Origin: Candidatus Omnitrophota bacterium
GTDB taxonomy: Bacteria; Omnitrophota; Gorgyraeia; JAHIPI01
Direction of reading: 5' to 3'
DNA length: 47,461 nt
Assembly: GCA_016783745.1 (NCBI GenBank)
Contig: JADHVZ010000012.1
Location: 1 to 47,461, forward strand
Shown here: piece by piece, positions 5,361 to 38,891 of the stretch
How positions within the stretch are numbered: the stretch's first letter is position 1
Layout of the letters: the number at the start of each line of letters is the position of its first letter
Position numbers and translations under genes: made by a program
The notes under the pieces: generated by a model
Seen by the model: only the letters and a program-made list of their open reading frames with translations
The model's database searches: none
What the model was told of the DNA's origin: nothing

Positions 5361-5474
5361 ATGAAGGTAAGATCAAGTGTTAAAAAAATATGCTCTAAAT
5401 GTAAAATAATACGAAGAAAAAGGGTATTGAGAGTAATCTGTTCGGATCCTAAGCATAAGCAGAGACAAGGCTGA
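5361..5474 (+). CDS. rpmJ: 50S ribosomal protein L36 (bL36)
   Basis: A 37-residue zinc-ribbon ribosomal protein. The translation reads [20 protein letters not shown] and continues to [11 protein letters not shown]. The zinc ligands Cys11, Cys14, Cys27 and His32 are all present, so this is the zinc-binding (C+) form. The purine stretch AGGTGAAAAG just before ATG 5361 serves as ribosome-binding site. It sits between infA and rpsM, its standard place at the start of the alpha operon. Confidence 0.96.
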
Positions 5475-5515
5475 TAGGTTTAGGTGATAGGTTATAGGTG
5501 GTAGGTAATAGGTTA
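5475..5515. repeat. TAGGTNN heptad tandem repeat
   Basis: Immediately after the rpmJ stop is TAGGTT (5475-5480), then five exact 7-base units: TAGGTGA, TAGGTTA, TAGGTGG, TAGGTAA, TAGGTTA. The first five bases of each unit are invariant and the last two vary. The orientation is the same as in the array at 1001-1024. No complementary arm is present before rpsM. A further weak match, TAGGTGG, overlaps the infA stop at 5343-5349. Confidence 0.8.
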
Positions 5516-5550
5516 TGGAGAAGATTCGGCACCTAAAAAAGGAGATATAA

Positions 5551-13768: not shown

Positions 13769-13800
13769 TACGCTTACAGGAAATTCGTTTATTGTACATC

Positions 13801-13921
13801 CGGTTTACGGTGTACGGTTTACGGTTCTCGGTGTTCGGTTCTCGGATTCTTTTCCCGAAAACCGTAAACCGATAACCGAAAACCGAACCAAGGTAATCGA
13901 AGCAAAATACGATATACGATT
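13801..13921. repeat. Heptad inverted-repeat element, copy A (CGGTNNN units plus linker)
   Basis: Left arm: six uninterrupted 7-base CGGTNNN units (13801-13842) and a final CGG. After a nine-base spacer comes a right arm of CCGNNNN units (13855-13889), whose reverse complement is the same CGGTTNN unit, so the transcript could form a long imperfect hairpin. It continues into a linker (13885-13913) that matches 25 of 29 bases of 37767-37795, then ATACGAT-type heptads. A degenerate outer left arm may start near 13783. It fills the leuD-icd gap; the icd ribosome-binding site AAGGAG is at 13937-13942. Confidence 0.85.
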
Positions 13922-13948
13922 GACGACTAATAAACCAAGGAGCTTTAC

Positions 13949-34612: not shown

Positions 34613-34720
34613 GGTCACAAAGTCACAAGGTCACCAGGTCACAAGGGAAGAAAAACCCCTGGTGACGTGTGACCTGGTGACGTGTGACCTGGTGACCTGG
34701 TGACGTGTGACCTGGTGACC
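34613..34720. repeat. GGTCACCA octad inverted-repeat element
   Basis: Left arm: four 8-base units (GGTCACAA, AGTCACAA, GGTCACCA, GGTCACAA, 34613-34644). After an A-rich spacer (34647-34655) comes a right arm of alternating CTGGTGAC (8) and GTGTGAC (7) units up to 34720, whose reverse complement is the left-arm unit. The right arm has about twice as many units as the left, so only part can pair. It fills the efp-accB gap and touches the TATAAT of a candidate promoter. Confidence 0.85.
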
Positions 34721-34727
34721 TTATAAT
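34700..34727 (+). promoter_or_regulatory. Candidate promoter for accBC at the edge of the repeat
   Basis: TATAAT (34722-34727) follows the last repeat unit. A -35-like GTGACG (34700-34705, four of six matches) lies inside the repeat with a 16-base spacer. The predicted start near 34734 leaves about 20 bases of leader with GAGGAG at 34744-34749 before ATG 34755. The -10 match is perfect, but the -35 is weak and part of a repeated unit, so it could be chance. Confidence 0.45.
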
Positions 34728-37022: not shown

Positions 37023-37637
37023 ATGCGGATATTCAGCGGTTTCACAATGCTGATCTACACTCTTGTGTTTCTAGCAATAGGCTGCGCCTTGATAGCCTTT
37101 TCCCTGAACATGATACTGATCGAGGATATCATACCCGCGATAGAGTACGCCTTTGACACACTAAACATCCGGTTAATAGTGGGGCTGGTAGGCGTGCTTA
37201 TAATCCTCTATAACCTGGTGGCGGTACAGATATCGCTTGGCAATATGCAGAGGGAAAAAACTATAGCTTTTGACAACCCAAGCGGCAGGGTGACTATTTC
37301 TCTGTCAGCCATTGAAGACTTTATCAGGCGGTCTTCCTCTCATATCCCGGAAGTAAAGGAGCTCAGGGCGGACGTCAAGGCAAGCAAGAAAGGGATCAAT
37401 ATCACCAACAGGGTCGTAGTCTATTCAAACACGAATATTCCGGAGGCTACCGAAAGAATACAAAGCATACTCAAGCACAGGATACAAGAAATGCTCGGCA
37501 TAGAAGAACCAATAAACATAAAAGTACATATCGCGAAAATAGCCCCGAGAGATTCCAAAGACAAAGCGCCTAAAAAGGTTGAAGAGATAGAACAGAAGAG
37601 AGGGATCTTTAAGGGTATTGAATATGGAGACGGATGA
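37023..37637 (+). CDS. amaP: AmaP-like membrane anchor for Asp23
   Basis: A 204-residue protein with two N-terminal membrane helices (about 5-30 and 48-70). A cytoplasmic Asp23-like domain follows (SGRVTISLSAIEDFIRRSSS, then GINITNRVVVYSNTNIPEA). This is the AmaP layout, where the protein anchors Asp23 at the membrane. AAGGGGG precedes ATG 37023 closely. The charged tail (DSKDKAPKKVEEIEQKRG) may be the contact surface. The large heptad element starts just after its stop. Confidence 0.85.
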   Translation: MRIFSGFTMLIYTLVFLAIGCALIAFSLNMILIEDIIPAIEYAFDTLNIRLIVGLVGVLIILYNLVAVQISLGNMQREKTIAFDNPSGRVTISLSAIEDFIRRSSSHIPEVKELRADVKASKKGINITNRVVVYSNTNIPEATERIQSILKHRIQEMLGIEEPINIKVHIAKIAPRDSKDKAPKKVEEIEQKRGIFKGIEYGDG

Positions 37638-37645
37638 TCTGGTAA

Positions 37646-37837
37646 TTCGTATATCGCTTATCGTTAATCGTTGATCGTATGTACGGTTTACGGTGTACGG
37701 TTTACGGTGTACGGTTTTTAAAATCCAACGGTTGTTCCGTAAACCGTAAACCATGAACCGTAAACCGAACAAAGGTAATCGAAACGAAATATGATTAACG
37801 ATATACGATAAACGATATACGATCAACGATATACGAA
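37646..37837. repeat. Nested heptad inverted-repeat element, copy B
   Basis: Outer arms are built of ATCGTNN units on the left (37646-37680) and NNACGAT on the right (37789-37837). The outermost 11 bases, TTCGTATATCG (37646-37656) and CGATATACGAA (37827-37837), are perfectly complementary. Inner arms are five CGGTKTW heptads (37684-37718) against CCGTAAA-type heptads (37737-37770). The right side also carries the 29-base linker (37767-37795) shared with the copy near 13885. It occupies almost the whole amaP-pfk gap. GGAGG for the next gene is at 37847-37851. Confidence 0.9.
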
Positions 37838-37862: not shown

Positions 37863-38891
37863 ATGATGAAGATAGGGATACTTACGGGCGGGGGCGATTG
37901 CCCGGGGATAAATGCTGTAGTAAGGGGCGCGGTAAGAACCGCGATACAAAAGGGCTATAAAGTAATCGGCCTTCGCGACGGATGGAAGGGCCTTGTAAAT
38001 AAGGATCATGTCAATCTGGACCTGAGCTCTGTTGCCGGAATACTCATAAAAGGCGGGACGATCCTGGGAACAAGCAGGACCAATCCTTATAAAATCGAAG
38101 GCGCAGTCGAAAAATGTAAAAAGAACTTCAAGCGCCTGGACCTTGACGCTCTTATAGCTATAGGCGGCGAGGATACCCTGGGAGTGGCAAACAAACTAAA
38201 CAAAGAAGGCTTAAACGTAGTAGGTGTTCCGAAGACGATCGATAATGATCTTTCCGCCACTGACTTCACTTTCGGGTTTGACACGTCCGTAAATATAGTC
38301 ACTGAGGCTATAGACAGGATCCAGACAACAGCCGAAAGCCACCACAGAATATTAGTAGTCGAAGTTATGGGACGTCACGCAGGCTGGATCACGCTTTACG
38401 CGGGTATTGCCGGCGCAGCGGATGTGATCTTGATACCGGAATTTCCTTTCGACATAAATGAAGTAGTGGATATCCTGAAAAAATCTAGAAAGAGCGGTAA
38501 AAAACACGGCATAGTCGCTGTTGCGGAAGGCGCTACCTTCAAAGATAGGAGCATGGTGATACAGAAAGAAGAGCTCGATTCCTTTGGGCACGTCAGGCTT
38601 GGAGGGATCGGAGGGATCCTTTCCGGCAAGATAGAAGAGATGACGGGTTTTGAGACGCGTTTAGTCGTCCTGGGACATCTGCAGAGGGGCGGATCTCCGA
38701 CAGCCGCGGACAGGGTGCTGGGAACACGTTTCGGCGTCGGCGCGGTAGAGCTAATTGAAAATAAAAAATTCGGAAGAATGGTAAGCCTGAACGGAAACAA
38801 TATCGTGGACGTTCCGCTTGAAAAGGCTGTGGGTAAGCTTAAAACAGTCAGTGAAGAACTGTATAATACAGCTAAAATATTTTTCGGTTAG
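37863..38891 (+). CDS. pfp: 6-phosphofructokinase, probably pyrophosphate-dependent
   Basis: Phosphorylates fructose 6-phosphate. The 342-residue protein has GILTGGGDCPGINAVVRG, GGEDT (101-105), PKTIDNDL (123-130) with catalytic Asp127, and MGRHAGWI. Asp104 and Lys124 stand where ATP-dependent E. coli PFK has two glycines. This Asp/Lys pair is the known signature of PPi-using enzymes. The preceding acidic residue is Glu103 where most relatives have Asp. The start is ATG 37863, or 37866 immediately after; the GGAGG is 11 or 14 bases upstream. Confidence 0.88.
   Translation: MMKIGILTGGGDCPGINAVVRGAVRTAIQKGYKVIGLRDGWKGLVNKDHVNLDLSSVAGILIKGGTILGTSRTNPYKIEGAVEKCKKNFKRLDLDALIAIGGEDTLGVANKLNKEGLNVVGVPKTIDNDLSATDFTFGFDTSVNIVTEAIDRIQTTAESHHRILVVEVMGRHAGWITLYAGIAGAADVILIPEFPFDINEVVDILKKSRKSGKKHGIVAVAEGATFKDRSMVIQKEELDSFGHVRLGGIGGILSGKIEEMTGFETRLVVLGHLQRGGSPTAADRVLGTRFGVGAVELIENKKFGRMVSLNGNNIVDVPLEKAVGKLKTVSEELYNTAKIFFG

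Follow-up and report, generated by a model that had tools for sequence, protein, structure and literature searches.

Within the window (the whole analysed stretch of 47,461 nt from a Candidatus Omnitrophota bacterium), an amaP-like gene and the phosphofructokinase gene pfp are separated by a gap bounded by the amaP stop (37637) and the ATG of pfp (37863), and this gap is occupied by a nested inverted repeat (Table 1). The initial annotation took the whole gap for one element, and this is nearly the case; the 8 bp after the stop codon and the Shine-Dalgarno stretch lie outside and are spared. The nesting that it described, with outer ATCGTNN/NNACGAT arms around inner CGGT-type/CCGTAAA arms, was seen in the sequence as well as in the folds, and the outermost 11 bases pair perfectly as claimed (TTCGTATATCG at 37646-37656 with CGATATACGAA at 37827-37837). 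The repeat is not, as had been stated, built only of 7-base units in strict 7-base steps. Heptads account for 142 of the 192 bases, the remainder including the core and the right spacer, and two bases at 37681-37682 break the register between the layers.

Table 1 Features of the amaP-pfp locus and the second copy of the element in the window
Feature	Position	Strand	Description
amaP-like gene	37023..37637	+	Asp23-related, below the Pfam cut-off; upstream of the element, stop 8 bp before it
Element (dispersed-repeat copy)	37646-37837 (192 bp)		Nested inverted repeat in the amaP-pfp gap
Left outer arm	37646..37680	.	5 degenerate ATCGTNN-type heptads, in order TTCGTAT ATCGCTT ATCGTTA ATCGTTG ATCGTAT; pairs with 37797-37837 in the folds
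Left inner arm	37683..37717	.	5 ACGGTNN heptads, TT/GT alternating, 14-bp super-period
Core, type A	37718..37736 (~19 nt)	.	Non-heptad, TTAAAATCCAACGGTTGTT
Right inner arm	37737..37767	.	CCGTAAA CCGTAAA CCATGAA CCGTAAA CCG
Right spacer	37768..37796 (29 nt)	.	Non-heptad, AACAAAGGTAATCGAAACGAAATATGATT
Right outer arm	37797..37837	.	AACGATA/TACGATA (NNACGAT) heptads in inverse orientation to the left outer arm
pfp	37863..38891	+	Phosphofructokinase (PF00365); downstream of the element; adjoins the amaP gene in relatives too
Second copy	13785..13926	.	Same architecture, alternative type B core GGATTCTTTTCCC

Tandem Repeats Finder recovered the arrays of period 7/14, among them the left inner arm, which is conserved in an alignment of 18 copies. 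The right inner arm is inverted relative to the left one and carries different linkers, so that 2-nt mismatches recur in the arms, with left GTA linkers opposite TCA or TTA on the right. When folded as RNA, the element reached -80.8 kcal/mol compared with -48.1 +/- 3.8 kcal/mol for 200 shuffles, none of which was as low (z -8.6); as DNA, the z value was -7.9. Thus, the long stem or cruciform that had been proposed is energetically possible. An intrinsic terminator was rejected, in agreement with the initial annotation, as no GC-rich stem with a T-run was found on the plus strand and a single weak match lies inside the element on the minus strand. CRISPR was also rejected because the heptads are contiguous and have no spacers between them. 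An Rfam search of the window returned tRNA only, with no match to the element, and nothing relevant was found in a literature search with the element's own sequence.

When the element was used as a query on its source genome (G000, a 1.66-Mb Omnitrophota draft in 54 contigs), 89 matches were obtained, which merge to at least about 40 sites; this number is a lower bound, some first-look candidates having been left unscored. A chance origin of the window element is excluded, because about 40 further copies exist in this genome. Besides the heptads, the non-heptad core and spacer recur in about 40 copies at unrelated sites, the type A core of Table 1 being common to about 17-20 of them and the right spacer to most full copies. 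Nearly all copies are intergenic and many fill operon gaps directly after a stop codon, including the rpsN-rpsH and infC-rpmI gaps. Based on gene calls from a simple ORF script rather than curated annotation, 36 of the 37 sites with both neighbours called lie between co-directional genes. Since 44 of 51 gaps in the window are themselves co-directional, this preference is only a mild excess. Seventeen of 36 copies start within 15 bp of the upstream stop (median 18.5 bp), compared with three that lie within 15 bp of the next start. Over all copies, a paired test gave no significant difference between the stop-side and start-side distances (p 0.95), partly because wrapped copies (see below) sit in large gaps. 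The orientation of the copies relative to transcription showed no preference (16 same, 20 opposite).

The layers of the element are separable. Most copies in the source genome have the type A core (TTTTAAAATCC..GGTTGTTCC) and others the type B core, which was found in both orientations inside the same outer ATCGTNN layer. ATCGTNN arms surround other cores at C50:20240 and in C36, C7 and C52, and they also enclose a quite different core, ACAAATCCGGTGGAGGACATCAAC, without an ACGGTNN layer; conversely, ACGGTNN palindromes without ATCGTNN arms are present in C17 and C40. The largest copies sit within extra inverted-repeat layers, namely a CTCTCGAAT..CTCGAGAGACGC stretch and CGTAACNNN decamers. The most complete wrapped copy (C47) ends in the inverted termini TAAGCAATGTTGATC..GATCAACATTGCTTA as its outermost layer, and TA was seen by eye on both sides. 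The terminus AGCAATGTTGAT..CTCGCTCC was matched exactly at three places and nearly at five others, and is absent from the window copy, for which no target-site duplication was identified either. This genome also contains a nested palindrome of 246 bp (C51:59698-59943, L200) that shares the AAGCAATGTTGATC ends and differs entirely in its interior.

The amaP-pfp pair is kept in three genomes of the same family and other genera (G001, G002 and G003), where the gaps are roughly 15-70 bp long and without heptads, these empty sites not being resolved to the base. Because the conserved gene pair lacks the element in all three, the element was most likely gained at this locus in the source lineage. 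Together with the copies elsewhere in G000, the empty sites bear out the earlier proposal of an element family as opposed to purely local slippage. Not every site need be recent, however, because an ACGGTNN palindrome is present in the infC-rpmI gap of both G000 and G001; on this comparison of two genomes, the gap being cleanly recovered in few relatives, some sites may be old. The rpsN-rpsH gap contains the present element in G000, AGCGTAT/ATCCGCT heptads in G005 and CGTNNTN heptads in G008. We also observed that differing repeat words form inverted arms in this gap in G005, G008 and G004 (L313, L301 and L300, respectively), which belong to different genera.

The related genus represented by G001 possesses copies of its own, in which the ACGGTNN word is shared and the core is similar. 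In one case, a full ACGGTNN palindrome sits in-frame within the GspG pseudopilin leader (NCBIfam TIGR01710; L050, 1487-1978), a leader which in several GspG homologues is only a few residues long. The same leader contains ATTCCGC heptads in G011 (L347) and other palindromes in G017 and G018 (L337 and L336), as if this cleaved peptide were tolerant of insertions. In addition, in-frame TATATCG/ATACGAT heptad inserts were observed in truA (SYIVYRIS; L047, 1430-2224) and ispG (RDIRYTTYDIRN; L044, 620-1732), which are reminiscent of the Rickettsia palindromic elements.

Covariation of the arms, which had been suggested as a check, was not found. Redrawing the three bases that separate the CGGT words, with the pool of the respective arm as source, showed that the inner-arm linkers of 28 G000 copies are independent between the arms, since the native copies folded no better than the redrawn ones (mean z -0.03). 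In the 18 aligned type A copies, the consensus pairs were essentially the CGGT/ACCG words and a small core helix; none of the 17 pairs had changed on both sides, and the covariation term was unfavourable (positive). The numbers of heptads in the left and right inner arms, which reach 11, were uncorrelated (rho -0.14, n = 32). Because the linkers are independent, two-sided changes are absent and arm lengths are uncorrelated, the complementarity in the G000 family, as shown for the inner arms, is a by-product of a fixed word placed in opposite orientations. This conclusion is limited to the G000 family because copies from Saprospiraceae gave a weak effect in the linker test (mean z -0.61, n = 24) and those of Larkinella are near-perfect palindromes by eye. 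The initial annotation had named missing copies together with missing covariation as grounds for giving up the element family; only the second was observed.

Heptad arrays are common in the class. A 410-kb sample was made up of the window and 20 stretches from class-mates, chosen blind to repeats except for one stretch each from G001, G005 and G025 and the window itself. In this sample, 18 of 21 degenerate tandem arrays had a period of 7 or 14 bp, compared with 0 in simulated sequence, and their words differed by genome. Outside the window, 7 of 16 arrays had an inverted partner scoring above mismatched controls. The window itself contains inverted 7/8-base units (GGTCACAA.. / GGTGACC, TGTGACC) at 34613-34721, which fill the space upstream of the biotin carboxyl carrier gene with another word in a similar architecture, and short heptad arrays at 5472-5516 and 1001-1024 (ATAGGTT, TAGGTAG). 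An intergenic heptad run of about 400 bp was observed in G016 (L327, 12980-13400), its word drifting through TGTCCTA, CTTGTTA, TTGCAGC, TTTGTAA and TTTCTGT.

Of 292 genomes of the class, only 5 contained palindromes of paired ACGGTNN arrays, which were also found in other phyla. Counted as overlapping matches, there were 14-26 per genome in Saprospiraceae and Lewinellaceae, 29 in a Desulfobacterales genome, 9 in Larkinella and 3 in a Leptolyngbya, with no control matches. In Saprospiraceae the cores differ from copy to copy. The polarity is near-strict, with 119 overlapping matches against one reversed in genomes of several phyla, the opposite arrangement having been seen once in 21 of them; these genomes were selected by a pattern of one polarity, and the claim rests on the counts within each genome. 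Many single matches, in Streptomyces, Salinispora, Treponema, Oceanospirillum and others, were excluded as ordinary single hairpins. Among viral contigs, the inverted CGGTTTACGG pattern was found in one contig only (L162, 10462-10514), so phage carriage is not general.

We consider the window element to be a dispersed, non-coding and probably non-autonomous repeat, in which a two-layer palindrome was inserted as a unit and its arms then varied by heptads (probability about 0.7). It would be a composite whose two layers are separable, with outer ATCGTNN arms enclosing inner ACGGTNN arms, which in turn enclose a short core. Copies would insert as whole units into intergenic gaps flanked by co-directional genes, in many cases directly downstream of a stop codon, and would leave the coding sequences and the ribosome-binding site intact. 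The TA-flanked inverted termini of the most complete wrapped copy hint at a MITE-like mobilisation. Among the Y1 transposases of the source genome none was tied to the family, the five loci having no heptads nearby; the spread may in part be due to recombination among heptad arrays already in place. Judging by the differences in length from copy to copy, the arms would lengthen and shorten after insertion through duplication of 7 or 14 bp by slippage or unequal recombination. Their complementarity comes, as shown for the inner arms, from the same fixed word (CGGT, ATCGT) opposed on the two sides and not from base-by-base upkeep of a stem. No conserved function was detected. A co-transcribed copy would form a long imperfect mRNA hairpin, plausibly an RNase III or processing site.

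That last property could itself be what is selected, making the nested stem a structured RNA that processes or stabilises the transcript (an RNase III site, stabiliser or attenuator), a role that has been reported for Correia (CREE/NEMIS) and REP elements. The very stable fold and the operon positions beside stop codons, including rpsN-rpsH and infC-rpmI, are in line with such a role, as is the possible binding and cleavage of CREE by RNase III (PMC2649163). We find it unlikely, however, given the absence of compensatory pairs, the positive covariation term, the independence of the linkers between the arms, the empty gap of the same operon in relatives, the plus strand without a terminator-like T-run and the missing Rfam match. 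Because the arms do not covary, we take the element for a dispersed, probably non-autonomous repeat whose arms grew by 7-bp duplication, and not a conserved RNA structure.

Alternatively, ACGGT at a 7-bp pitch and its orientation might be selected as an array of binding sites for a nucleoid protein or regulator. In line with this, the word stays fixed while its linkers drift, and the convergent orientation is nearly invariant in genomes of several phyla (119 against 1). But the words differ among genomes of one class, no position preference was seen beyond operon gaps, the search pattern by which the genomes were selected had this very polarity, and polarity could be inherited from founder copies where the cores are shared; we therefore hold such an array to be improbable. 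Duplication of heptads and snap-back inversion in place, without any movement, would agree with the dominance of heptamer arrays with genome-specific words in the class, and both the 14-bp alternation and the variation in arm length indicate local duplication. As an account of the window element it is the least credible of the three and very hard to reconcile with a non-heptad core and spacer that are shared among about 40 unrelated sites and with a whole element inside the gspG leader of G001. It may hold for single arrays of other genomes.

A broader proposal is tentative and, in our judgement, rather doubtful: degenerate heptad palindromes might constitute a general class of bacterial repeats, in which a process specific to 7 nt forms inverted arrays at the ends of genes, each unit consisting of a lineage-specific 5-mer and two free bases, and the fixed polarity (ACGGTNN left, complement right) is common to genomes of Omnitrophota, Bacteroidota, Desulfobacterota and Cyanobacteria. 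In the present class, nearly all degenerate arrays are of 7 bp, the same architecture is found with words that change by genome, and in one lineage a heptad palindrome has become a dispersed repeat of mosaic structure. Origin, polarity and any effect on the transcript are testable in culture, since ACGGTNN arrays are present in isolates of Larkinella and Spirosoma.

Heptamers are over-represented in bacterial genomes, an observation for which, to our knowledge, no mechanism has been established. The STRR heptanucleotide repeats of cyanobacteria are multicopy, largely intergenic 7-bp units, mostly in direct tandem. The tandem heptad families of Geobacter metallireducens and Beggiatoaceae share the 7-bp unit, the copy number and the largely intergenic position with the G000 repeats; they are mostly direct tandem, and nested complementary arms are unreported in the available text of these sources (PMC2700814, PMC4679880). 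MITEs, CREE/NEMIS and the Rickettsia palindromic elements resemble the element in being non-coding, dispersed, intergenic inverted repeats that occasionally lie in-frame in genes, whereas its arms are heptad arrays and not unique sequence. REP, BIME and REPIN are likewise intergenic, hairpin-forming palindromes in mosaic arrays (PMC2817692, PMC3116915). Identity with REP/REPIN-RAYT was rejected, as no heptad pair was found in about 0.8 kb of flanks at the five Y1 loci of the source genome and, unlike in REP/REPIN, Y1 transposase genes are equally present in relatives without the element.

The closest counterpart is the degenerate GGGAATC heptads of Xanthomonas, which often form convergent inverted pairs by stop codons (70 and 75 pairs in two genomes), are largely transcribed and have no role identified (Rehm et al. 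2015, PMC4692102). The same authors mention a proposal by which the abundance of heptamers mirrors the segment of DNA that DNA polymerase holds. Both systems have tandem 7-bp units with fixed and variable positions, two convergent arrays close together, and a mostly intergenic location between aligned genes near the upstream stop. The Xanthomonas repeats are single-layered, G-rich and G-quadruplex forming, occupy the same position in two species in 83 % of cases and are not tied to mobile elements (PMC4692102). In contrast, the two layers of the G000 element are nested and differ in their words, its non-heptad core is shared among copies, it was most likely gained at amaP-pfp, and its CGGTKTW/ATCGTNN units lack the run of three G required for a G-quadruplex. 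Because these G-tracts are absent, it is of the same kind as the GGGAATC family and not a member of it. The initial annotation knew of no described family of nested complementary heptad arms; this can stand for the two-layer nesting and not for convergent inverted pairs. Thus, inverted heptad pairs by stop codons were already known, and their layered mosaic version appears to be new.
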